From Wocania ichthyoenteri Th78 (lineage in GTDB: Bacteria; Bacteroidota; Bacteroidia; Flavobacteriales; Flavobacteriaceae), in contig NZ_KN525716.1 of assembly GCF_000789235.1 (NCBI RefSeq), forward strand, positions 960,071 through 1,024,070: a stretch of DNA of 64,000 nucleotides. The letters are read 5' to 3'. The notes under the pieces were generated by a model that ran no database searches, was not told where the DNA came from, and worked only from the letters and a program-made list of their open reading frames with translations. Both the position numbers and the translations under genes were made by a program. How positions within the stretch are numbered: position 1 is the stretch's first letter; the number at the start of each line of letters is the position of its first letter. Positions 24,901-40,002 of the stretch are shown here, in pieces.

Positions 24901-25280
24901 AATTTGAAGCTTTTGAGTTGTTTAAAGCGATGATTGACCAAGTTAATAAGGATGTAATTTCATTCTTATTTAAAGGAGAATTACCTCAAGAAACTCAAGA
25001 CACCATTCAAGAAGCTAGACAAACACGTAAAAAGGAAAATCTAAAAACACAAAAAGACGAAATTCCTAATTTAGACGAACGTTCTGCACAAAACAGAGCA
25101 GCAGGAAATATACAACGCCAACAAGAGGTTGTTGAAACCATTGTACGTGATAGACCAAAAATTGGACGAAACGATCGTGTTACCATAAAACACGTTATGA
25201 ATGGTGAAAACAAAACCGTAAAATACAAACAAGCCGAACCTTTAATTGCCAAAGGGGAATGGGTTTTGGTTGAGGATTAA
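21924..25280 (+). CDS. secA: Preprotein translocase subunit SecA
   Basis: SecA is the ATPase motor that pushes unfolded preproteins through SecYEG at the inner membrane. This 1,118-residue form has Walker A AEMQTGEGKTLVATLP near residue 190, AIVDEVDSVLVDDARTPLI (DEAD-like motif II), MTGTAVTEAGEFWEIY, TNMAGRGTDIKL and RQLRGRAGRQGDPGSS of the second motor domain. It is about 200 residues longer than E. coli SecA because of inserts usual in Bacteroidota. It ends QAEPLIAKGEWVLVED with no cysteine-rich zinc tail. It has its own promoter, and the M23 peptidase gene follows after 12 bases. A decayed copy of its last 60 bases lies at 26183-26245. Confidence 0.97.
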   Translation: MSFLNSVLKVFVGDKSKQDVKALMPLVDKVKTFEAALEALSHDELRDKTVEFKAIIAETRKPFNERKETLLKEAEATEDIDRREDIYQEVDKIEDESYEAVEKTLNDILPEAFAVVKETAKRFVNNTNITVTANEFDRSLSGDKTYITLDGDNATWSNSWDAAGKPITWDMVHYDVQLIGGVAMHQGKIAEMQTGEGKTLVATLPVYLNALTGRGVHLVTVNDYLAKRDSAWMAPIFEFHGLSVDCIDYHQPNSEARIKAYNADITYGTNNEFGFDYLRDNMAHSPDDLVQRPHHYAIVDEVDSVLVDDARTPLIISGPIPQGERHEFNELKPKVDDIVSVQRKYLTGVLAEAKKLIKAGDTKEGGFQLLRVYRGIPKNKALIKFLSEEGVKLLLQKTENFYMQDNNREMPKVDAELYYVIEEKNNQIELTDKGIEYISGKDNPDFFILPEIGIEVAKIEEQGLSAEEEANLKEELFKEFGVKSERIHTLNQLLKAYALFEKDTQYVVMDNKVMIVDEQTGRIMDGRRYSDGLHQAIEAKENVKIEDATQTFATVTLQNYFRMYRKLSGMTGTAVTEAGEFWEIYKLDVVEIPTNRPIARDDKEDLVYKTKREKYNAVIDDVTQLSEAGRPVLIGTTSVEISELLGKMLSIRKIPHNVLNAKQHKKEAEIVDQAGKTGQVTIATNMAGRGTDIKLSDEVKAAGGLAIVGTERHDSRRVDRQLRGRAGRQGDPGSSQFYVSLDDNLMRLFGSERIAKMMDKMGLKEGEVIQHSMISKSIERAQKKVEENNFGVRKRLLEYDDVMNAQREVVYKRRHHALFGERLRVDLANMIFDTSEGIADTNKGANDYKNFEFELIRYFSMSSPITEAEFGKLSPQEITSKIYNTAFDNYKEKMARNADIAFPVIKNVYETQRDKFKRIVVPFTDGVKSLNVVTDLEKAYESGGKQLITDFEKNITLAIIDDAWKTHLRKMDELKQSVQLAVHEQKDPLLIYKFEAFELFKAMIDQVNKDVISFLFKGELPQETQDTIQEARQTRKKENLKTQKDEIPNLDERSAQNRAAGNIQRQQEVVETIVRDRPKIGRNDRVTIKHVMNGENKTVKYKQAEPLIAKGEWVLVED

Positions 25281-25292
25281 ATACTAAAATTT

Positions 25293-26090: not shown

Positions 26091-26182
26091 ATTCCTTTTA
26101 AATATTTTAGCATGAATAAAACTACTTCACTATTGCATAAAATAAACGAGTTAAAAATCTATTCAATTAACTTTGTAAAAAT

Positions 26183-26245
26183 GTAAAACACAAACAAGCT
26201 GAACCTTTAATTGACAATTGCTAATGGGTTCTGGTTGAAGATTAA
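26183..26245 (+). pseudogene. Decayed duplicate of the 3' end of secA
   Basis: The 63 bases read like the last 21 codons of secA: QAEPLI is intact, an in-frame TAA falls in the middle, then WVLVED and the stop TAA are kept. The match to the true secA end at 25218-25280 is clear over its whole length with scattered substitutions. It lies about 90 bases after the M23 gene, which is therefore bracketed by two secA 3' ends. Confidence 0.8.
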
Positions 26246-26356
26246 TAACTAAGTTATATTATAAACCGTCAATACAGCAATGACGAGAAGTTTTAAAATC
26301 TTGATAGTCTTCTGTGAGGATTTTTTGTTTTCATTACGTAGGAAAAATTAATTATC

Positions 26357-26422
26357 TTTACGGGATAACAGTAACAAAAAACTTACTATATCCTGACTTA
26401 TTTACGGGATATCGGTAATAAA
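26357..26422 (+). repeat. Pair of 22-base direct repeats before the cassette array
   Basis: TTTACGGGATAACAGTAAC (26357 on) and TTTACGGGATATCGGTAAT (26401 on) match at 19 of 22 bases, with starts 44 bases apart, about four helical turns. They lie 17 bases before the left half-site of the cassette array in a 370-base gap that otherwise holds only the secA remnant. They could be protein-binding sites such as the direct repeats of an integron attI, or a promoter operator. This is inference. Confidence 0.5.
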
Positions 26423-26423
26423 T

Positions 26424-26448
26424 GTTATTATATAACGAGTTGTACCCA
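26424..26448 (+). repeat. Left boundary half-site of the cassette array
   Basis: TTATTATATAAC then GAGTTGTACCCA resembles the right half of the full cassette repeats (at 38946-38970: AATTATACACAAACACGTTG then TACCCA). Only the right half is present; no left arm is seen upstream. The last ten bases, GTTGTACCCA at 26439-26448, are the exact reverse complement of TGGGTACAAC at 30028-30037, the end of the first gene unit. Confidence 0.65.
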
Positions 26449-29400: not shown

Positions 29401-30020
29401 TAAAAGAATTTTTTGAAAAAAACAACCATTCCCATTACTTTAAAAGCCATGGTAATGCTACATTATACCATTGGGTTCTTGCTCAAAGAGTAGAGAAAAA
29501 TAAAGGAAAATTAAGTCAAAATAAAATTAAAAAACTTGATGAAATTAATTTCGTTTGGGAGCCAGACAATATTGGAACTATGCCAGATGATGATAATTGG
29601 CTAAACCTTTTAATAAAATTACGTGAATATAAAGATGTATTTGGACATACAAACGTTTCACAAGTCGATAAAAATCCGGAATATAAGAAATTAGGTAAAT
29701 GGTTGAATGAACAAAGAAATTATAAAAAAGGCAGAAAACTTGGAAAAAGAATAGTGTTTTTGAACGAAGAAAAAGAGGCATTACTCAATGGTTTAGGAAT
29801 TATTTGGGATGTTAAAGAACATGAATGGAATCAAAGACTTGATGAATTAAAAAACTATTATGATGAATTCAACTCATGGAAAGTTCCTCTAAACGGAAAA
29901 AAATTCGGTGGATTAGGTCATTGGATTTACAGAATCAGAAAAAATGGAACTACCTCTGAAAGGGCTGAAAAGTTAAAGAATATTGGCTATGATGTGACTG
30001 AATTATTAATTAAGGACTAA
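26463..30020 (+). CDS. Nuclease-helicase with helicase-associated (HA) repeats
   Basis: The 1,185-residue protein starts from TTG, 24 bases into cassette A. Residues about 30-170 look like an Mrr/PD-(D/E)xK nuclease: TLFEVFCKYFF, EYGIDLIL and VGVQSKYR supply Glu, Asp and Gln-x-Lys. A superfamily 2 helicase follows: LPCGAGKSLTS near 210, LAICDEAHKTSG near 332, LYMTATPR, and SIVQAAGRALRKD near 550. From about 655 to the end there are six or seven helicase-associated repeats of the W-x3-Y-x2-LKEY...LGTWCVAQR type, each about 65-75 residues, which bind nucleic acid. It is plausibly an anti-phage or restriction effector working alone. Confidence 0.88.
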   Translation: MTQEEQILLKILDGVQTWDDIKPKFDEWVKKDKKLGGTLFEVFCKYFFLTEPTFKDEYKNVWLFNEVPFSFKANLGFSDVEYGIDLILENEDGLIVGVQSKYRTLVERKIYWSKDKLANLVAYGNKCDRLIVFSNVQEIDNQTDKSINQKVLLEQLDSIENSTFRDIESLLKGLTPNNFKKFNPLPHQKLAISKVDKHFENNNRAQLILPCGAGKSLTSLWIKEKLNPVNTIVLVPSLALLRQMKNEWARHKKTKYKYLCVCSEKDIDRDAQLTEFSLAEIGGNVSLNPTTIANFLKNNKVKSKIIFSTYQSLQEVEKATNLLDNFKFDLAICDEAHKTSGNKQKVFGIIHEDFRIGAVKRLYMTATPRVASQQLKNLLGDKIKFLYDMSNERVFGKEAHRMSFAEAIPDILCDYKIIGIGVSDREVKKFLDQRNYVTNDETIDEYAHNYALKIAMEKYKAFHALSFHHTVQGSKSFSERHSNLFGDSIFSKFVSGHQSSGVRQSILKEFSKRDIGIVANARCLTEGVDVPTIDLIYFCDPKNSKVSIVQAAGRALRKDRTGKKTLGYIVVPIFHKLEDDIEKAVDRSVFKNVIQVIRSLCDHDERLQAEINDIAFKKGKKNKNSKIEFSFSNDETERIIKLVGFKEKLKTSLFDQIIEKTNDSWDLRYRELKEYHNANSNSDVPARYENRALGTWCVAQRVRFNSGKLSTVEIKKLEKLDFKFKPRGDNFKYFTNALIKFKSKHKHCDVPIHSDDFPKLGKLVNRYRHIYKKGVKRPDGSVYLKYIGKLKKEDIQKLESLGFKWQVRRRNWFDFYKEIQDYFNQNNSLKGLASENESLYHWLYNNRKKLDTLSKSKREKLELFDIKPINEDDINKDRITWDENYILLKNFKKEYGHLDLSRYLPKYKKLHKWVKYQVNAEKNNTLSINSVNKLISIGLIKKDKNSNGQQVLNFEEPKEIVTKVLIKNNRKSWDGRYNELKEFFEKNNHSHYFKSHGNATLYHWVLAQRVEKNKGKLSQNKIKKLDEINFVWEPDNIGTMPDDDNWLNLLIKLREYKDVFGHTNVSQVDKNPEYKKLGKWLNEQRNYKKGRKLGKRIVFLNEEKEALLNGLGIIWDVKEHEWNQRLDELKNYYDEFNSWKVPLNGKKFGGLGHWIYRIRKNGTTSERAEKLKNIGYDVTELLIKD

Positions 30021-30027
30021 AAAGTAC

Positions 30028-30164
30028 TGGGTACAACACCGTGTATAATTAATGGCTAGTTTTCGCCTACTTACGAAAATCCTCGCGAATTTTCTATTCA
30101 GTTTTTATTTGCTAAATTAGGTGCTTAAACACGCCACTAATCATACACAAGACCGTTGCCACCA
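30028..30164 (+). repeat. Cassette repeat 1 (117-bp dyad plus core boxes)
   Basis: Left box TGGGTACAAC (30028-30037) belongs to unit A and right box GTTGCCACCA (30155-30164) to unit B. Between them, the arms GTGTATAATTAATGGC (30041-30056) and GCCACTAATCATACAC (30133-30148) pair with two wobble-type mismatches, and a central hairpin starts GAAAATCCTCGC. The 117-base spacer length is shared exactly with repeats 2 and 3. Confidence 0.9.
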
Positions 30165-30170
30165 ATTTGA

Positions 30171-31217
30171 ATGAACATCAGAAATCCAATATATTCATTT
30201 AGTATAATAGTTTTCCTTTTCGGAATTTTCATATTCTTAATTATGGGATTTTGGGGAATTGGAGCTATACTTTGGTTGTTTGGAATTTATTCAATTTTAG
30301 TATTAACAAGTTTTTTACTTAAAAAATTCAAAGTCAAATACCGACAAATAATTGAATGGACTTTAATATTTATTTATGTTCTGTCCCACACTTTATACCA
30401 TTTAAATTGGGACGTAGGAAGTGAAATTTATTTCACAAATGAAAATGAACCTTTTGTTGGAAAAAATCAGAGTTTTATAATAGTTTTCGGAATAGAAAAC
30501 CAACCAAAACTCGAAAGCAATTACTTTACAAATAATAAAATACTTATTCCAGAAAATGGAATTTTACTAACTTCTTCAAAAAAGGAAACATTTAAGCATA
30601 GATATAGATTTCCTGTAGTTGGCAGTGGAGAAAAGTTTTCAGCCACCTACTTTGAGCAATATAATTGTTACGGAGAAAAAAATCACAAATTTAATTACGT
30701 TTTTGGAACAATAAGCGACTTGGGAGAAGTTGATTATAGATACAGAGATTCAATTGGAGATTTAATTTGTGAAAAACTCAAAAACGAAGATTTTAAAAAC
30801 AATCTAAAAGCAGGTTATGAAAACGGAAATTATCTTGACCAAAAAGAGGTTTTAATAAATTATCAAAATTTGACTAAACTTCCTAACGGGCTTTTAGAGT
30901 TGAGAAATCTTGAGTATTTAAATGTGCATTCTAATAAACTGAAAGTTTTTCCTAAAAGTATTTTAGAGTTTCCGAAACTTAAAAGACTGACAATTGGATA
31001 TAATGAAATTAAAACAATTCCTGAATGGATTGGCGGAATTAAAAGTTTAGAAAGCCTTGCAGTAAATGGAAATGATTTGACTTCAATTCCTGATACGTTA
31101 TTGACTTTGCCGAAACTGAATTATTTACTAATAAGAGAAATTGATTTTAACGATTTGGAAATGAAAAGAACAATTGAAAAATTTGTACAAAAAGGAGTAA
31201 AAGTCCAATATGAATAA
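30171..31217 (+). CDS. Membrane protein with leucine-rich repeats
   Basis: The 348-residue protein has two or three N-terminal hydrophobic segments (SIIVFLFGIFIFLIMGFW, LFGIYSILVLTSFLL, IIEWTLIFIYVLSHTLYHL) and a C-terminal block of about four leucine-rich repeats: LTKLPNGLLELRNLEYLNVH, LKVFPKSILEFPKLKRLTIG, IPEWIGGIKSLESLAVNG and IPDTLLTLPKLNYLLI. The middle region is unrecognised. It is the sole gene of cassette B, with its ATG 16 bases after the core. LRR proteins usually recognise partners, so a sensor or surface role is possible, but no function can be assigned. Confidence 0.8.
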   Translation: MNIRNPIYSFSIIVFLFGIFIFLIMGFWGIGAILWLFGIYSILVLTSFLLKKFKVKYRQIIEWTLIFIYVLSHTLYHLNWDVGSEIYFTNENEPFVGKNQSFIIVFGIENQPKLESNYFTNNKILIPENGILLTSSKKETFKHRYRFPVVGSGEKFSATYFEQYNCYGEKNHKFNYVFGTISDLGEVDYRYRDSIGDLICEKLKNEDFKNNLKAGYENGNYLDQKEVLINYQNLTKLPNGLLELRNLEYLNVHSNKLKVFPKSILEFPKLKRLTIGYNEIKTIPEWIGGIKSLESLAVNGNDLTSIPDTLLTLPKLNYLLIREIDFNDLEMKRTIEKFVQKGVKVQYE

Positions 31218-31223
31218 AAAAAC

Positions 31224-31364
31224 TGGTGGCAACACCGTGTATAATTAATGGCTATTTCTCGCCTACTTACGAAAATCCTCGCGGATTTTCTATTAGGTTT
31301 TTATTTGCTAAATTAGGTGCTGAAACACGCCACTAATCATACACAAAACCGTTGTAGGTAATGC
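31224..31364 (+). repeat. Cassette repeat 2 (117-bp dyad plus core boxes)
   Basis: Left box TGGTGGCAAC (31224-31233) is the exact reverse complement of the start of unit B. Right box GTTGTAGGTAATGC (31351-31364) begins unit C. The intervening 117 bases are nearly identical to repeat 1, with the central hairpin GAAAATCC-TCGC-GGATTTTC perfectly paired. Confidence 0.9.
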
Positions 31365-32564: not shown

Positions 32565-33064
32565 GTAAATACATTGTAGATTCAAACTTCTTCATACAAG
32601 CTCATCGTTCAATTTATCCTCTTGATGTTGTTCAAAGTTTTTGGTTAAAAGTTAATGCCTTATCTCAAAATGGAACAATAGTAAGTATTGATAAAGTAAA
32701 AAAAGAGATTTATGACAATTCTTCTCACGAAGATGAACTTAAATTATGGTGTGATTCTAATTTACCAAACGATTTTTTTATTAATACTGATACTGTTCTT
32801 CAAAATTATATTTCGATTGTAAGTTGGACTAATTCAATGTCTCATCATTTCACACCAAATGCAATTCAGGAGTTTCTTGAAACTGATCTTGCAGACCCTT
32901 GGCTTATTGCTTTTGCTATGAGTAATAATTGGACTATTGTTACTTATGAAAAAAGCCAACCTGAAAGAAAAAATAGAATAAAAATACCTGAAGTCTGTAA
33001 TCAATTTAATGTTAAACATATTGATACAATCCAAATGTTTAGAGAGTTAAACGAAAGTTTCTAA
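32561..33064 (+). CDS. DUF4411 PIN-like protein, partner of ImmA/IrrE protease
   Basis: The 167-residue protein starts KYIVDSNFFIQAHRSIY, with the first conserved Asp of a PIN-like fold, and has IVSIDKVKKEIYD near residue 47 and DLADPWLIAFAMSNNWTIVT near residue 110, with the later acidic residues. PIN domains are Mg-dependent RNases, and DUF4411 genes are regularly found beside COG2856 proteases as probable toxin-antitoxin pairs. The 4-base overlap with the protease gene supports stoichiometric expression. RNase activity is inferred from the fold only. Confidence 0.85.
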   Translation: MSKYIVDSNFFIQAHRSIYPLDVVQSFWLKVNALSQNGTIVSIDKVKKEIYDNSSHEDELKLWCDSNLPNDFFINTDTVLQNYISIVSWTNSMSHHFTPNAIQEFLETDLADPWLIAFAMSNNWTIVTYEKSQPERKNRIKIPEVCNQFNVKHIDTIQMFRELNESF

Positions 33065-33065
33065 A

Positions 33066-33203
33066 GCACTACCTACAACAACGTATATAATTTATTGCTA
33101 GTTCTAGCCTACTTACGAAAATCCTCGCGGATTTTCTATTCGGTTTTTATTTGCTAAATTAGGTGCTTAAACACGCAACAAACCATATACAAGACCGTTG
33201 TAG
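33066..33203 (+). repeat. Cassette repeat 3, right core interrupted by IS3
   Basis: Left box GCACTACCTACAAC (33066-33079) matches the complement of unit C's start at 13 of 14 bases. The 117-base spacer has arms GTATATAATTTATTGC and GCAACAAACCATATAC: both arms differ from repeats 1 and 2 in compensating ways, so pairing is preserved. Only GTTGTAG (33197-33203) of the next unit's box remains before the IS3 element begins. Confidence 0.88.
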
Positions 33204-33242
33204 TGACCCGTCCTGAATAAAGGCTACATAATTTTAAACATT

Positions 33243-33614
33243 ATGTATAAAAATGACAAAGTAATTAGACGGTATTCAGAACCTTTTAAACTGAAAATTC
33301 TTGACGAACTTAGTAAAGGTAAGCACACAAAGAGCGAACTTTGTAAACTCTACTCTATTGCACCTACAACGGTCAATGAGTGGATTAAAAAGTACAATCG
33401 TAAAGACTTAATGAACACCAGAGTAAAAGTGGAAACTAAAGACGAAATATCTAGAATTAAAGCACTGCAAAAAGAGATTGAACAGCTTAAAAAACTACTG
33501 TATAAAAAGGATCTAGATGCTTTGGTATTAGATTCATATCTGGAAGTTGCTGCTGAAGATCTAGGTTACAAATCTGTTGCTGAGCTAAAAAAAAAGCTAA
33601 GCATAAAGCCTTAA
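33243..33614 (+). CDS. IS3-family transposase OrfA
   Basis: This 123-residue protein has an N-terminal helix-turn-helix (SELCKLYSIAPTTVNEWIKK near residue 30) for binding the terminal repeats and a leucine-zipper-like coiled coil (ISRIKALQKEIEQLKKLLYK). Near its end, at 33587-33595, nine A followed by G form an A-type slippery site, so ribosomes can shift -1 into orfB. On its own it is a DNA-binding regulator of transposition. Confidence 0.9.
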   Translation: MYKNDKVIRRYSEPFKLKILDELSKGKHTKSELCKLYSIAPTTVNEWIKKYNRKDLMNTRVKVETKDEISRIKALQKEIEQLKKLLYKKDLDALVLDSYLEVAAEDLGYKSVAELKKKLSIKP

Positions 33615-34465
33615 TCAAAGCTAAACAGAAATCTAAGGGATTTGCTTCTTTAAAAACTATAACTCATTGTTTTGGTCTTAAACGTGATGCGTATTATAAA
33701 TACAAATCTAGAGCTGATAGGCGTTTAAAACTAGAACAACAGATTATAAACATAGTCAGTAAAAAACGTAAATCCCTTCCTAGAGAAGGCGTGCGTAAAC
33801 TCAAAAAATCATTAGATAATGAATTTACTAAAGCCAACTTAAAAGTCGGTAGAGACACCCTATTTAACGTTCTTAGAAAACACAATATGCTTACACTTAG
33901 AAAGAAAACTAGCGCCAGAACAACAAATTCTTATCATCGTTTTTATAAGTATAATAACATGATAAAGGATATGAAAGTCACTAGATCAAATCAAGTTTGG
34001 GTATCTGATATTACATACATCAGAACAGTAAAAGGTTTTTGTTATCTGGCTTTAATTACAGACATGCATTCCAGAAAAATTGTTGGTTATGACCTTAGTG
34101 ATAGCTTAGAACTTAAAGGATGTGTAAGAGCCCTTAATAAGGCCATTTATCAAGCTAAAAACATTAAACAGCTTGTTCATCATTCGGACAGAGGAATACA
34201 GTATTGTAGTAATGTATACACTCAAATACTTAAAAGAAAAAAGATAGGTATTAGTATGACTGAAGAAAATCATTGCTATGAAAACGCAATGGCAGAGCGT
34301 GTAAATGGAATCTTAAAAGACGAATTTTATCTCGACCAAACCTTTGATAACGTGACTCACGCTAAAAGAACCGCAAAAAATGCAATTAATTTATACAATG
34401 AAATAAGATTACATTTATCTTTAGACTATAAAACACCTAATATGGTATACAAATTATCAGCCTAA
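33587..34465 (+). CDS. IS3-family transposase OrfB (made as OrfAB by -1 frameshift)
   Basis: The frame is open from the slippery A tract at 33587 and reads KAKHKALIKAKQKSKG, then the integrase catalytic core: QVWVSDITYIRTV (first Asp), LVHHSDRGIQYCS (second Asp) and YENAMAERVNGILKDEF (Glu), the D,D(35)E triad. RKSLPREGVRKL is the HTH_21-like linker region. An internal ATG at 33791 could give a shorter product, but the family normally works as the fused OrfAB. All motifs are intact, so activity is possible. Confidence 0.9.
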   Translation, partial: KKKAKHKALIKAKQKSKGFASLKTITHCFGLKRDAYYKYKSRADRRLKLEQQIINIVSKKRKSLPREGVRKLKKSLDNEFTKANLKVGRDTLFNVLRKHNMLTLRKKTSARTTNSYHRFYKYNNMIKDMKVTRSNQVWVSDITYIRTVKGFCYLALITDMHSRKIVGYDLSDSLELKGCVRALNKAIYQAKNIKQLVHHSDRGIQYCSNVYTQILKRKKIGISMTEENHCYENAMAERVNGILKDEFYLDQTFDNVTHAKRTAKNAINLYNEIRLHLSLDYKTPNMVYKLSA

Positions 34466-34670: not shown

Positions 34671-35795
34671 ATGGATAAAAAATATTCGGACATAAAAGAG
34701 AAACTTCAAATCGTTGTAGACAAGAAAACTACTAATGATTTAGCACATTTAACACACTATTTTCAGAATCACAAAAATGGTGTTTCTCAATATTTCAGAA
34801 CATCTGCAACTGAATATTTGACTGAACTTCACGAAGAATTGAATATTCTTCAAGAACCAGACTTTCAATATTATTTACCTATAAAATGGGATATTCCATT
34901 TCCACCAACTGAAAAACCAACATTTAAGTTTATCGATCTTTTTGCAGGAATTGGAGGAATAAGACTAGCATATCAAAATAATGGCGGAAAATGTGTTTTT
35001 ACTAGCGAATGGGATACATACGCAAAAAAGACCTACGAAGCGAATTTTGGAGAAGTACCATTTGGAGACATTACTCAAATTTCAGAAAGAAATATTCCAG
35101 ACCACGATATTTTATTAGGTGGTTTTCCTTGTCAACCTTTTTCAATCGCAGGAGTTTCAAAGAAAAATTCTTTAGGGAAAGCACACGGATTTTTGGATGA
35201 AACCCAAGGAACTTTATTTTTTGACATTGCAAGAATAATCAAACATAAAAAGCCAAAGGCTTTTATGCTTGAAAATGTGAAAAATCTAGTTTCTCACGAT
35301 AAAAAGAAAACATTTAAAATCATAATTAGCACTTTAGAAAAGTTAGGATATAATGTTCACTATAAAATTCTAAATGGGAAACATTATGTTCCTCAAAATC
35401 GTGAACGAATCATTATAGTTGGTTTTAAAAAGACCGTTTTCAAAAGTAAAGAGACTTTTGAAATTCCCAACCCACAAGAATCTAATTTTGTTTTTAAAGA
35501 TATACTTGAGCCAAAAGTGGATAACAAATATACTTTGTCTGATAAACTTTGGAATTATCTTCAAGAACATGCAAGAAAACACAAAGCCAAAGGAAATGGG
35601 TTTGGTTTTGGATTGACTGATTTAAATGGTATTTCAATAACTATTAGCGCGAGATATTATAAAGATGGTTCCGAGGTTTTAATTTTTGATTTGGGCGATA
35701 CCCTAAAGGGTCGGGCTATCCGTTTCAATCTTTTTTTCGTGCCTCAAAAAAGGATTTCCACTTCTATCCCTATCGCATTAAAGCAAGTAGCATAA
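34671..35795 (+). pseudogene. DNA cytosine-5 methyltransferase, C-terminally truncated
   Basis: From ATG 34671 the product has FIDLFAGIGGIRLA (motif I), GGFPCQPFSIAG (motif IV with the catalytic Cys), FMLENVKNL (motif VI) and QNRERIIIVGF (motif VIII), as in Dcm/M.EcoRII-type enzymes. It matches up to SARYYKDGSEVLI, then the frame enters the palindromic repeat at 35693 and ends with about 30 repeat-encoded residues at TAATG, overlapping the next gene. Motifs IX-X, including the GNSV-type segment needed for the SAM fold, are lost. Activity is unlikely. An upstream in-frame start at 34605 would add an unrelated leader and is not favoured. Confidence 0.85.
35693..35776 (+). repeat. Type-3 palindromic repeat, 84-bp copy at the methyltransferase break
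   Basis: It runs GGGCGATACCC ... CCCTATCGC, so the outer stem here is GCGATA/TATCGC. The copy at 36753-36836 is also 84 bases, inverted, with GCGTTA/TAACGC instead, a compensatory change. It overwrites the end of the methyltransferase reading frame. Confidence 0.85.
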
Positions 35796-35992: not shown

Positions 35993-36759
35993 AAAAAGGA
36001 CAAAAACTTTGGACGAGAGAAGAATCAATTTTAGCGATAAATCTTTATTGTAAATTACCTTTCGGTCGATTACATAGGTCTAATCCTCAAGTTATTCATT
36101 TAGCACAGTTAATAGGAAGAACACCAAGTTCAATAGCATACAAATTAGTTAATTTTGCTAGTCTTGACCCAAGTTTACAGGCAAGAGGAATTAAAGGTGC
36201 TTCAAATTCAAGTAAGTTGGACAAAGCTATTTGGGATGAATTTTACAATAACTGGGAAGAACTACCATTTGAAAGCGAGAAATTATTATCAAAATTTGAG
36301 AACAAATCAATAGAAGAACTTAATAATATTGACATTGAAAACCTACCTAAAGGTAAAACAAGAGAACAAGTAGTTAAAGTTAGAGTGAATCAATCCTTTT
36401 TTAGAAGTTCTATTCTAGCATCATACAATAGTACCTGCTGTATAACAGGTATAAATCAAAGTGAACTTTTAATTGCTGGACATATTAAACCTTGGAGTTT
36501 TGACGAGCAAAACAGATTAAATCCTAGAAACGGTATTGCCATTAATGCTTTACACGATAAAGCTTTTGAAACTGGATTAATTACTATTACACCCGATTAC
36601 AAAATTAAAGTTTCTAATGTTTTGCTTAAACAGAAGAAAACTGATTCTCTTGAAAAATATTTCTTCCAATACGAGAATAAAGACATCTTTTTACCTTCAA
36701 AATTTTTACCTGATGTTGAATTTTTGAAATATCATAATGATAGCAGATTTCAGCGTTAA
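35989..36759 (+). CDS. HNH endonuclease
   Basis: The 256-residue protein has an N-terminal helical region (WTREESILAINLYCKLPFGR and HLAQLIGRTPSSIAYKLVNF) that looks DNA-binding, and a C-terminal HNH domain: TCCITGINQSELLIAGHIKP near residue 145, then NPRNGIAINALHDKAFETG, with the conserved His, Asn and His. Such HNH proteins are often restriction or defence nucleases. The stop codon lies inside the inverted palindromic repeat. Together with the zinc-ribbon gene it forms a module of about 1.1 kb bracketed by the two repeats. Confidence 0.85.
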   Translation: MKKGQKLWTREESILAINLYCKLPFGRLHRSNPQVIHLAQLIGRTPSSIAYKLVNFASLDPSLQARGIKGASNSSKLDKAIWDEFYNNWEELPFESEKLLSKFENKSIEELNNIDIENLPKGKTREQVVKVRVNQSFFRSSILASYNSTCCITGINQSELLIAGHIKPWSFDEQNRLNPRNGIAINALHDKAFETGLITITPDYKIKVSNVLLKQKKTDSLEKYFFQYENKDIFLPSKFLPDVEFLKYHNDSRFQR

Positions 36760-36836
36760 GGATAGAAGTGGAAAGCCCACAGCGAGGCACGAGCGAGGAC
36801 TTGTAACGTATAGCCTGACCCTTTAGGGTAACGCCC
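36753..36836 (-). repeat. Type-3 palindromic repeat, 84-bp inverted copy at the endonuclease break
   Basis: It runs GCGTTAAGG ... AGGGTAACGCCC. Its reverse complement aligns without gaps to the copy at 35693-35776, including GGGC, ACCCTAAAGGGTC, CGTGCCTC and TTTCCACTTCTATCC. It contains the stop codon of the HNH gene and ends one base before the surviving endonuclease frame. Confidence 0.85.
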
Positions 36837-37523
36837 AAAAAATTAGAAGCAGAATTAGGAGTTACGCCAAATGGCTATTCCGAACCTGATTTTATGGGTT
36901 GGGAAGTGAAGCAGTTTGGAGTTACTAATTTTAATCGTACCAAATCTAAAGTTATAACTTTAATGACACCTGAGCCAACTGATGGAATATATAAAACAGA
37001 AGGGATTGAATATTTTGTTAGGAATTACGGCTACAAAGATAAAAATGGTATTCCCGATAGATTAAATTTTGGAGGAGTACACAAAGTTGGGGAAAAACAT
37101 CATCTTACAAATTTAACGATGCAATTAATCGGATTTGACGTTGAAAGTGGAAAAATACGTAACGCGAATGGCAGAATTGCACTATTAGACGAGAATGAAA
37201 ATGAAGCAGCATCTTGGAGTTTTTCTTCAATGCTAAAACATTGGAACAGAAAACATAATCAAGCTTGTTATGTTCCATCATTGTCAGAAATTAAGCCCAA
37301 AAGAAAGTATAAATATGGTAATGAAATAATATTAGGGACTGGAACTGATTTTCAATTATTTCTATCCCAAATGGCTATTGGAAATATTTATTATGACCCA
37401 GGTATTAAATTGGAGAATGTATCTACCAAGCCAAAACCTAAGAAAAGAAGTCAGTTCAGAACAAAGTCTGGATTTTTACCGAATTTATATAAACAGAATG
37501 AAGTAATAGACATTGCGGAATAG
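36837..37523 (+). pseudogene. MvaI/BcnI-family restriction endonuclease, N-terminus lost
   Basis: The frame is open from the edge of the palindromic repeat and reads KKLEAELGVTPNGYSEPDFM, then GWEVKQFG, so the D-x4-E-x-K catalytic set of MvaI/BcnI enzymes is kept. It continues KVITLMTPEPTDGIY, GVHKVGEKHHLTNL, SFSSMLKHWNRKH and YYDPGIKLENVS, all family-typical. By comparison with a full-length enzyme, roughly 30-45 N-terminal residues are missing. The first in-frame ATG (36894) falls after the catalytic Asp. Known relatives cut CCWGG or CCSGG, which would fit the Dcm-like methyltransferase upstream. It is probably inactive. Confidence 0.85.
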
Positions 37524-37606
37524 CCAACGCTGAAAGCCATACACATTTACAGTAGCACCATCCAAGCTTCGCCAAAACTGTAAAAGAGTATGTCTTCGCC
37601 AACGCT
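37522..37606 (+). repeat. Type-2 dyad repeat, copy 2
   Basis: It starts AGCCAACGC, overlapping the stop of the endonuclease remnant, and ends GCCAACGCT. The arms CATACACATTTACAGT and ACTGTAAAAGAGTATG pair at 14 of 16 positions. Arms differ from copy 1 while the plan is kept. Confidence 0.65.
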
Positions 37607-37663
37607 AGCAAGTTTGCGGAAAAAAGCCAGCAGGTAACTAAGAACTGAGTTAAAAAACAAGCA

Positions 37664-38632
37664 TTATTGAGCTAATTTTGAAACAAAGTTTTCATCATAA
37701 GGTCTTCCTGATTTTGCAATAGCAAAAGCTTGTTTTAATAGCTTATTTGCCACTGCTATTAATGCTAACTTTTTACTCTTTCCTTTAGTTACTATCCTTT
37801 CGCATAACTCTCTGCAAGCCTTGTTGTGTTTACAGGCTGAAAAAGCACATAAAAACAGTAGATTTCTTAATTTCTTATTCCCTACTTTACTAATCCTGCT
37901 CCGCCCTTTTACGCTACTACCTGATTCTCGTATAGTAGGTGTAATACCAACATAACTACATAACTGTGATGCCGTTTCAAACTTATAGAATCCATCGGTT
38001 ACTACTATTAAAAATAAAGCGGTCTTTACGCCCATACCTGGGATACTTTTTAATAACGTTAATTGATATTGCTGGTCTTGTTTTACCAATTCTAGTAACC
38101 GTGCCTCCAAAACTTCTACTTCCTTGTTTAAATGCTTTAAATTCCGCTTTAAAGACCTATAAACAAACTTGGAGGGCACACCCAATACTTCTTCTCCTTT
38201 TAGCTTGTTCTTGGTGGCTGTTCTATGTTTTAGGTAACTATCCAATAACCTAAAGAGTTGTAAACACTCACTCTGAATATCTGTCAAGGCATTATACAAT
38301 GGAACATCATTCATTTGCCCATATTCGCAGATAGCTTTTGCATCACTTTTGTCTGTCTTAACTTTGGCTAATTTCATCTGTATAAATCGCTTTACGGATA
38401 ACGGATTTACTACAGGTACAAAAACACCTTCATGGTATAAAAACTGTGCTAAACGATAATGATAATAGCCTGTAGCTTCCATAACTAATAAAGCCCCTTG
38501 TGGTAAGCTCTTCAAAAAGCTTTTAAAACCTTGCTCATCATTTTTAAACTGATTATGTCCTGTCTTGGAACCATAAACATCAAAGACATTTTTACTAATG
38601 TCAATTCCGTAAATTTCGCTATATTTATTCAT
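37664..38632 (-). CDS. IS110-family transposase
   Basis: From ATG 38632 the 322-residue product starts MNKYSEIYGIDISKNVFDVY, with the first Asp of the RuvC-like DEDD site. LLVMEATGYYHYRLAQFL gives the Glu and KTDKSDAKAICEYG the two Asp residues. The C-terminal Tnp domain has LKSIPGMGVKTALFLIVV and RESGSSVKGRSRISKVGNKK, which carries the catalytic serine region. A frame extension to 38701 would run into the RNA-coding leader and is not favoured. All catalytic motifs are intact. These recombinases act with a bridge RNA. Confidence 0.9.
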   Translation of the reverse strand: MNKYSEIYGIDISKNVFDVYGSKTGHNQFKNDEQGFKSFLKSLPQGALLVMEATGYYHYRLAQFLYHEGVFVPVVNPLSVKRFIQMKLAKVKTDKSDAKAICEYGQMNDVPLYNALTDIQSECLQLFRLLDSYLKHRTATKNKLKGEEVLGVPSKFVYRSLKRNLKHLNKEVEVLEARLLELVKQDQQYQLTLLKSIPGMGVKTALFLIVVTDGFYKFETASQLCSYVGITPTIRESGSSVKGRSRISKVGNKKLRNLLFLCAFSACKHNKACRELCERIVTKGKSKKLALIAVANKLLKQAFAIAKSGRPYDENFVSKLAQ

Positions 38633-38723
38633 AAGAACTGTATTTTGGAAAGAACGAGCTACTGACGTTTCAACAACTTGAAATCGAGTTTTAATACTCA
38701 CAGAACTGAACGAAATCTTAGTA

Positions 38724-38798
38724 GGAAAAGAGAGAGGGTTATCAATGTTGTCGAAGTCTTTGCTTCACCGTGTATACTAACCTTATTTCTCTCTTTTG
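38724..38798 (-). ncRNA. Candidate IS110 bridge RNA, target-binding loop
   Basis: Transcribed on the minus strand just upstream of the transposase gene, this folds as AAAAGAGAGA/TCTCTCTTTT (10 pairs), then GGTTA/TAACC, then an internal loop closed by GAAG/CTTC. The left loop strand TATACACGGTG equals the complement of CACCGTGTATA in cassette repeats 1 and 2. The right strand ACAACA is complementary to TGTTGT of the same junction. Together they cover 15 contiguous target bases. At the actual insertion site TATACACG still flanks the element. The full RNA probably extends to about 38640, including a second hairpin region for the donor. Confidence 0.65.
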
Positions 38799-38840
38799 TT
38801 CTTTCTATTTTATTATCTAAAATTAGAGATTGTAAACTTA

Positions 38841-38974
38841 AGACGTGTATAATTAATTGCTAGTTCTAGCCTACTTGGAAATTCCTTCGGGATTTCCTCT
38901 GGTTCGTTTTTGTTTATTAATTTAGTTGCTGAAACACGTAACGAAATTATACACAAACACGTTGTACCCAATTA
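38841..38974 (+). repeat. Cassette repeat 4, left core disrupted by IS110
   Basis: The left arm GTGTATAATTAATTGC follows directly after the IS110 end. The right arm GTAACGAAATTATACAC leads to the core GTTGTACCCAATTA (38961-38974) of unit E. The central hairpin is GGAAATTCC-TTCG-GGATTTCC instead of GAAAATCC-TCGC-GGATTTTC, so both sides changed together while pairing stayed. Confidence 0.85.
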
Positions 38975-39048
38975 AAAAATTTCGTTTAATTTCATAATTA
39001 GAGTTAAAATGATTGTATCTTTGATAGTATCAAATGATAGTATCATAA

Positions 39049-40002
39049 ATGAAGCCACCTTACGAAATAACACCATCAATTTTAAAATTAATAACTTCCA
39101 TTTCAGAAAAAATTGGTGAAGTAAATGCAAATTTATTGAACAAGCCTTCAACTAAATTAAGAAAACAGAATAGAATTAAAACTATTCATTCTTCTTTGAA
39201 AATTGAAGGGAACACACTTACTGAAGAACAAATAACTGCACTTCTAGAAAACAAGAGAGTTATTGGTCCAAAAAAAGATGTTGTTGAAGTTTTAAATGCA
39301 ATTAAAATCTATGAAAATTTAGATTCATATAATCCTTCACAAGAAAAATCTTTTTTAAAAGCTCATCAAAACTTGATGGAAAGTCTGATTCAGGATGCTG
39401 GAAAATATAGATCCCAAAGTGTCGGAATTGTTAAAGGTTTAAAAGTAGAACATTTAGCACCTCCTTTTGAAAATGTTCCATACTTAATGAAAGATCTTTT
39501 TGAATACTTGCAAAAATCAGACGAAATAGAATTAATTAAAAGTTGTGTTTTCCATTACGAAATGGAATTTATACATCCTTTTTTAGATGGAAATGGTAGA
39601 ATGGGACGATTGTGGCAAACTTTAATTTTAATGGAAAAATATCCAGTCTTTGAGTTTTTACCTTTTGAAACCTTAATTAGTAACGACCAAGAAAAATATT
39701 ACAAAGCTTTAGCTGAAAGTGACAAATCTGGAAAATCAACAAAATTTATTGAATATATGTTAAGTGTAATTGATATTTCAATAAGCGATTTATTGGATTT
39801 CAACAATAGAACATTAAATGAAAATGATAGATTAGAGTATTTTGTTTCTTTGAATAAAACTGAGTTTACTAGAAAGAATTATATGGATGTTTTTAAAGAT
39901 ATTTCTTCAGCAACAGCTAGTAGAGATTTAAAAAAAGGTGTGGAACTAAATCTATTTGGGAAAATTGGAGAAAAGAATAAAACAATTTATAAATTAAAAT
40001 AA
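39049..40002 (+). CDS. Fic/DOC-family protein with autoinhibitory motif
   Basis: Fic enzymes usually transfer AMP from ATP to a hydroxyl of a target protein. The 317-residue product has IHSSLKIEGNTLTEEQ near residue 48, matching the S/T-x3-E-G/N inhibitory helix, and MEFIHPFLDGNGRMGRLWQ near residue 175, the complete catalytic HPFx2GNGRxxR loop. The C-terminal 60 residues, with TRKNYMDVFKDISSATASRD, look like a winged helix. It is the only gene of cassette E, 88 bases from the core. With the inhibitor built in, no separate antitoxin is needed. The target is unknown. Confidence 0.92.
   Translation: MKPPYEITPSILKLITSISEKIGEVNANLLNKPSTKLRKQNRIKTIHSSLKIEGNTLTEEQITALLENKRVIGPKKDVVEVLNAIKIYENLDSYNPSQEKSFLKAHQNLMESLIQDAGKYRSQSVGIVKGLKVEHLAPPFENVPYLMKDLFEYLQKSDEIELIKSCVFHYEMEFIHPFLDGNGRMGRLWQTLILMEKYPVFEFLPFETLISNDQEKYYKALAESDKSGKSTKFIEYMLSVIDISISDLLDFNNRTLNENDRLEYFVSLNKTEFTRKNYMDVFKDISSATASRDLKKGVELNLFGKIGEKNKTIYKLK

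Follow-up and report, generated by a model that had tools for sequence, protein, structure and literature searches.

A predicted bridge-RNA target loop of an IS110-group element, apparently programmed to attC-like cassette sites in Wocania ichthyoenteri Th78

The stretch of DNA analyzed here, referred to as the window, comprises 64,000 nucleotides of Wocania ichthyoenteri Th78. In the leader upstream of a transposase gene (tnp), the minus strand of positions 38724-38798 can be folded into a loop that repeats sequence from a nearby array of cassette-like units. This raises the question of whether the loop guides the element into the array. The most probable answer, to which a probability of roughly 0.93 may be assigned on comparative sequence evidence, is that 38724-38798 is the target-binding loop of a bridge RNA from the left end (LE) of an IS110-group element, programmed to attC-like sites. 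Comparison of relatives shows a conserved two-loop structure for the predicted RNA, covariation of guide and target, and the point and orientation of insertion; the RNA very probably steers the element into cassette arrays.

The element and the fold of its leader

The element and the parts of its leader discussed first are as follows.

37640..38842, minus strand: IS110-group element of 1203 bp, from LE CTTAAGTTTAC (ending at 38842) to right end (RE) CTCAGTTCTT (starting at 37640)
37664..38635, minus strand: IS110 recombinase of 323 aa with DEDD_Tnp_IS110 and Transposase_20 domains
38648..38807, minus strand: predicted bridge RNA of about 160 nt with predicted ends, from alignment and covariation
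38724..38798, minus strand: predicted target-binding loop with its stems, the feature under study, from the fold and the conserved consensus

The recombinase contains an N-terminal DEDD domain (1.8e-21) and a C-terminal Transposase_20 domain (3.3e-21), both above cut-off, and is related to IS621 (PDB 8wt6, 8.7e-32) and ISCro4. Its motifs GID, EATG, KTD..DA and ESGSSV align with the catalytic D, E, D, D and S of IS621, and equating them with D11/E60/D102/D105/S241 presupposes that the numbering of the PDB chain is shifted by 2 residues. About 207 nt of noncoding LE lie upstream of tnp, and the RE is about 24 nt long, reaching about 120 nt in some relatives. Both domains, the catalytic residues, the long LE with a short RE, and a leader with target and donor loops are those of the IS110 group; a CT core common to target and donor was not found at flank positions 8-9 and the right junctions.

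A single genome scan yielded 275 relatives, the best 80 of which have 70-94% identity. These 80 belong mostly to Flavobacteriaceae or to genera that we take to be members of that family, with a few MAGs labelled Saprospiraceae, Bacteroidetes or Bacteroidia. The leader of the relatives is the same as that of the window element, as is the right end wherever the contig extends that far, and the ends of the element at 37640-38842 recur beside varying flanks. A second copy in the same genome (L002) has 73% identity.

Folding of the 75 nt confirmed the stem of 10 and 5 pairs with an internal loop that had been described in the sequence-only reading. The minus strand forms 10 pairs, an internal loop, 5 pairs, a large internal loop and an apical 5-pair hairpin. 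The large loop holds GTATACACGG on one side and ACAACATT opposite, with TATACACGGTG at its 5' side and ACAACA at its 3' side. The energy of this fold is -18.5 kcal/mol (z -3.24), and 1 of 200 shuffles was equally good. The 215-nt leader folded whole has an ordinary energy (z -0.88, 36/200 shuffles); the support for the fold lies in its conservation.

Conservation was assessed after the 66 distinct leaders had been thinned to 47 at 95.5% identity; 6 leaders lay outside the search pattern. In the consensus of the 47, besides an outer stem, the first loop is carried by one stem and a further loop by a second branch. It has 34 pairs, 12 of them with changes on both sides, and 98.8% of the cells are paired. 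Both-side changes number 103 versus 28.6 in shuffles, and on any of five covariation measures 0 of 500 shuffles reached the observed value. When the pairing partners were slid by 1-3 columns, only 47.8-54.6% were paired. The guide loop lies upstream of tnp in all 47 leaders. The bridge-RNA fold with a target loop, proposed earlier from the window alone, is borne out by this two-loop structure in relatives, and the search for leaders lacking a conserved fold, which had been named as a possible refutation, returned the conserved fold instead. Rfam at E<=1 gave no match in 37000-40000.

The loop was then placed beside the repeats and the flanks of the element.

30020..30158, plus strand: attC-like repeat 1, intact target type, with ACAACACCGTGTATA at 30033
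31216..31354, plus strand: attC-like repeat 2
33062..33200, plus strand: attC-like repeat 3, of the TATATACGTTGTTG type
38843..38966, plus strand: remainder of attC-like repeat 4, up to the box CG^TTGTA
38768..38776, minus strand: predicted left target guide UAUACACGG, followed by UG (38766-38767), covarying with the left flank
38746..38751, minus strand: predicted right target guide ACAACA, which pairs with TGTTGT
38843..38851, minus strand: left target half TATACACGT
37631..37639, minus strand: right target half AGTTACCTG, the R''-like box of the cassette

The sequence CACCGTGTATA occurs at 30037 (repeat 1), 31233 (repeat 2) and 38766 (loop). The identity of the loop with repeats 1 and 2, as first claimed, holds for this sequence, but the full 15-mer ACAACACCGTGTATA is restricted to repeat 1; repeat 2 reads GCAACACCGTGTATA and repeat 3 reads ACAACAACGTATATA. 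The loop matches the repeat junction exactly over 11 nt; when the 75 nt were dinucleotide-shuffled 20000 times, 3 shuffles reached an exact match of this length to the three natural junctions. In repeat 4, TATACACG at 38844 flanks the element, in agreement with the earlier statement that the element sits at the junction there. The right flank of the window element is AGTT, versus the TGTT specified by the right guide. A match of this kind could also arise if a piece of attC had been captured by chance or recombination and had no role, and AACNNCGTRTATAATT indeed occurs at six exact places in the same genome. The relatives, however, already contradict this explanation: the same position and structure recur in the 47 leaders, with two guides flanking one internal loop, and a captured piece is hardly credible.

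Guides, flanks and the position of the cut

For each element, the 9 nt at the start of the first loop were matched against the 9 nt of its left flank. For 76 elements, own matches amounted to 7.20/9 versus 6.23 permuted (sd 0.10; 0/10000), and for 51 unique guide/flank pairs to 6.82 versus 5.84 (sd 0.13). With 25 elements added, the 101 elements gave 78 unique combinations with 7.09/9 versus 5.93 (sd 0.10; 0/20000). Unique combinations were used because some loci probably come from the same genomes. Before counting, L001, which is the window element itself, and L003, with 28% identity, were dropped, and L004 was not included; also left out were L062, L064 and L065 (left end unreadable), L026, L069 and L070 (flank <9 nt) and, among 29 later loci, L162 and L174 (unparsed) and L166 and L167 (flank unusable). 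In a blind scan of all 9-nt leader stretches in both senses, the guide stretch had z 9.5 and the next stretch 3.8. The signal comes from guide positions 1, 2, 5 and 6; positions 3, 4 and 7 are nearly invariant, and at positions 8 and 9 there is little covariation between guide and flank (z 0.2 and 2.3).

Agreement between guide and flank might reflect only the co-inheritance of elements and attC sites within host lineages. Related elements share guides, hosts share attC types, and a simple permutation ignores kinship. Against this stand comparisons between close relatives. When each of the 76 elements was set against its closest relative among those whose flank differs, the own flank was the better fit in 57 cases, an equal fit in 4 and the worse fit in 15. 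For the nearest pairs differing in both guide and flank (n=63), the own combination beats the swapped one in 52, ties in 6 and loses in 5; the corresponding sign-test p of 3e-11 is an overstatement because the pairs overlap. Within one genome, moreover, the guide of L002 differs from that of the window element, and each fits its own flank, the window element at 8/9 and L002 at 9/9 (guide GTTAAACGA in flank GTTAAACGA); no other leader stretch gives a comparable signal. Co-inheritance as the sole cause is therefore judged very unlikely.

Guides have changed together with their flanks in several re-targeted relatives: GTCTACCGT in ATCTACCAT (L165), ATTAACCGT in ATTAACCGT (L172), GGTTACCAG in GGTTACCAT (L177) and TATAGCCGT in TATAGCCGT (L018). 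Uncommon guides score 9/9 on their own flanks in L172, L018, L077 and L002, 8/9 in L068, L177 and L011, and 7/9 in L165, and the best common guide scores 2-7 on these eight flanks. Compared with the best of four common guides, 14 unique uncommon-guide combinations were better in 11 cases, equal in 1 (L171) and worse in 2, the last being L058 and L173. Relatives that keep the loop at unrelated sites had been named as evidence that would count against the programmed loop; 6 of 76 fit their own flank at <=5/9 and the rest at >=6/9. The misfits are L067 (3/9), L083 (3/9), L084 (2/9), and L079, L037 and L078 (5/9), of which L083 and L084 lie behind the right end of another copy. The proposal that the loop is programmed to the repeat junction, with insertion there, is supported by the guides and flanks of relatives.

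A different explanation is that the recombinase itself recognizes a folded attC-like hairpin and that the leader is only a regulatory structure. The target can indeed fold as a single strand: the bottom strand of repeat 1 folds better than the top (-17.7 vs -11.6 kcal/mol), and for the bottom strands of repeats 1, 2 and 3, respectively, 4, 1 and 3 of 200 shuffles fold at least as well. ISKpn4 and ISPa11 have also been described in potentially folded structures (PMC11187229). Recognition of a hairpin, however, leaves the tracking of flank letters by guide letters at each position, including CTACC, TTAACC and GTTAAACG, without a place, and it is given only a very small chance.

Under the reading as a bridge-RNA target loop, the position of the cut can be approached. 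The last base of the left flank corresponds exactly to guide position 9. Right junctions read TGTT in 85/92 cases (CTT followed by TGTT); AGTT and CTTA occur twice each, and TGTC, TGCT and TTTT once each. In IS621 the top strand is cut between positions 9 and 10, and CT is the preferred core, GT, AT and TT also having worked (PMC11208158). A cut between guide positions 9 and 10, as the aligned junctions indicate here, would make positions 8-9, the two bases before the cut, the core. In the flanks these positions are mostly G/A then T/G, the targets being mostly GG, GT, AT or AG. Uninterrupted sites most often have GG, AT or GT at the core, in a regex list of 44 matches that includes chance ones and served only for natural variants. 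The donor core TT was read from the head-to-tail junction CAGTTCTT followed by CTTAAG at L083 and L084, which are not circles. Target-like core bases are kept at left junctions and those of the donor at right junctions. Since target and donor cores differ, the cut position can be read from the genome sequence alone. The overlap TG of the two guides, suggested earlier as the core, was rejected because two target-like bases precede the cut on the left and the donor TT stands on the right; the discrepancy between CA/TG and AG/CT that had been left standing is resolved by a cut 9 nt into the left guide. Wobble pairing with either guide would be compatible with A or G at position 8.

The second loop contains UCAGUUCU, which equals the right end of the element, and two donor guides may be assigned.

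38701..38709, minus strand: predicted left donor guide UCAGUUCUG, matching RE TCAGTTCT, from sequence and a co-change in L026
38677..38683, minus strand: probable right donor guide UUUCAAG, pairing with LE CTTAAG with one mismatch and one wobble

In L026, a T-to-A change is found in both the RE and the left donor guide, and both read CAGATCT. The predicted donor-loop pairing rests mainly on the conserved match and this one co-change; UUUCAAG is the probable right donor guide by sequence and by analogy with IS621. Head-to-tail or end-adjacent junctions (CAGTTCTT followed by CTTAA) stand beside the elements at L083, L084, L002 and L082 and may represent tandem copies.

The following course of insertion may be proposed. 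The left end of the element would be transcribed as the bridge RNA, whose first loop would pair with the attC-like site at a cassette junction and whose second loop would pair with the joined ends of the element. The recombinase would cut 9 nt into the left guide, and a presumed circle would be inserted there in one orientation, with strand chemistry modelled on IS621. A target TATACACGGTGTTG would take the insertion at TATACACGG followed by TG, with the RE-LE junction as donor. Insertion would split the attC-like site, and the cassette would probably lose its mobility afterwards.

The attC-like targets and their integron-type platform

Two units of the window start with GTT plus 6 nt and end with the inverse before the next repeat (GTTGCCACC with GGTGGCAAC, GTTGTAGGT with ACCTACAAC), and the box behind the attI-like site pairs with the box before repeat 1 (GTTGTACCC with GGGTACAAC). 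Such matching inverted boxes are the logic of integron cassettes. Similar signs can be observed in the relatives. In 49/82 elements, the box abutting the right end reappears in inverted form within the right flank, where the adjoining cassette ends, and in 51/92 the opposite arm was located 105-135 nt left of the element; the same test 600 nt further left, wherever the flank was long enough, gave 1. At least one independent attC sign was found in 77/102 elements and neither in 25/102; 20 of the 29 later loci were parsed in this test, and its arm pattern was wider than in the 63-element test. In the latter, 38 inverted boxes were observed versus a permuted mean of 1.6 (maximum 5 in 40 permutations), L026 and L027 being slicing artefacts. 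By this comparison of sequences, most insertion sites are shown to be attC-like cassette sites. The "cassette repeats" named at first can thus be specified as attC/cassette logic, and an integron-type system is present in other genomes of the family as well.

26352..26439, plus strand: attI-like site at the head of the array, ending in ATATAACGAG^TT, a copy of the site behind the integrase gene

The three arrays of the genome that were examined each start with an attI-like site of ~90 nt, one of them directly behind an integrase. The latter is a 388-aa tyrosine recombinase (L142:5321-6484), and its attI-like site lies behind the stop codon; two further copies head other arrays, including the one in the window. 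The integrase scores 209.5 bits with TIGR02249 versus a cut-off of 265, and 221.8 with XerA NF040815 versus 220. In place of the IntI-specific insert, it has 24 aa where VchIntI4 has 67.

Relatives of the integrase (E<=1e-60) are found in 79/199 family genomes, some with internal stop codons. The pattern TATA(A/G)CnnG^TT stands behind the integrase stop in 11/12 loci by eye (a script pattern flagged 3) and in 9/10 longer regions, with 4 genomes common to both sets. Chaining from 8 of these 9 regions gave 21 cassette candidates, of which 15 have exact boxes and 6 have boxes with one mismatch; some of the 21, with unusual attC lengths or weak arm scores, may be chance. At L193, the cassette chain ends at the right end of this IS type, within the array next to the integrase. 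Inverted boxes with attC-like sites, and attI next to an integrase, agree with an integron; an IntI-specific insert and a score above the integron-integrase cut-off were not found in the integrase of this genome. A XerA/IntI-like integrase with an attI-like site behind its stop suggests a class of integrons that would be overlooked in searches for intI. Co-occurrence of IS and integrase is weak, 13/26 IS genomes carrying the integrase by eye versus 79/199 overall (IS E<=1e-90, integrase E<=1e-60, 199 family genomes), and it was given no weight as evidence.

Relation to known systems and further features of the array

As described in PMC11208160 and PMC11208158, IS621 and the IS110 group resemble the present element in the DEDD and Transposase_20 domains, the RNA in a long LE with two internal loops, a left guide, 8-9 nt long, that resembles the top strand, a right guide pairing with the top strand, the cut between positions 9 and 10, and the conserved donor loop. 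Unlike that of IS621, the target of the window element is an attC-like cassette site, and its core is mostly GG/GT/AT/AG with a donor core TT, where IS621 has CT in both.

The IS1111-attC elements ISKpn4 and ISPst6 share RNA-guided insertion at one attC end (PMC11187229); their RNA lies downstream of tnp, whereas that of the window element, of IS110 type, lies upstream, in Flavobacteriaceae and with another attC type. In the set studied here, insertion at attC is indicated for 77/102 elements, and a downstream RNA was not found in the 47 leaders. In a literature search without preprints and with few subscription papers, neither attC targeting by the IS110 group nor flavobacterial integrons of this type were found described; the attC-targeting elements that were found are of IS1111 type with the RNA downstream. 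The window element and its relatives suggest that RNA-guided IS elements took up attC a second time, from the IS110 side.

Integrons and CALIN, as treated in the IntegronFinder 2.0 paper (PMC9024848), likewise have inverted boxes, attC-like hairpins, an attI-like site and a tyrosine integrase; the present system differs in an integrase below cut-off and without the IntI insert, and in an attI just behind its 3' end. For Bacteroidetes, the same paper mentions earlier only In0 and now a complete integron in Salinibacter, and Bacteroidota or Bacteroidetes/Chlorobi are listed among groups with integrons in PMC8618304, PMC9668308 and PMC2426708. The odds lean towards a wider picture in which Flavobacteriaceae carry widespread integrons missed by intI searches, with a XerA-like integrase lacking the IntI insert, attI at the integrase 3' end and attC of about 125-140 nt. 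An IS110 bridge-RNA lineage would have evolved onto them independently of IS1111-attC, its guides being re-tuned as the attC arm changes and its insertions locking cassettes. The target of the element points to integron-type arrays in a phylum with very few reported by the genome survey PMC9024848. The relatives offer a natural, large and diverging set of bridge-RNA guide-target pairs, and the guide rules and the cassette mobility are both directly testable.

Other features of the array may be recorded. Between 26440 and 38961 it encodes what are presumably, judging by sequence motifs, a 1185-aa helicase-like protein, an LRR-like protein, an ImmA/IrrE-like and PIN-like pair, a methylase-like fragment and an HNH-like protein, a cargo reminiscent of defence cargo. 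A presumably IS3-like element is found at repeat 3 (about 33200-34465), and one presumably of the same kind lies behind attI in another genome (L144/L184); their starts are 7-14 nt past the G of the GTT box, and both begin with TGACCCGTCCTGAA. Could this be a second IS that favours GTT boxes? The 3' end of a secA-like gene (25212-25287) is repeated in degraded form (76 nt, 83%) at 26177-26252, 0.9 kb downstream of the gene and just before the attI-like site. The box after the last repeat (38957-38970) is GTTGTACCC, the same as that of the first cassette (26437-26448), as though a single site had received the array or served as its source. Within the array, an 87-nt inverted repeat pair (77%) is located at 35690-35776 and 36753-36839.
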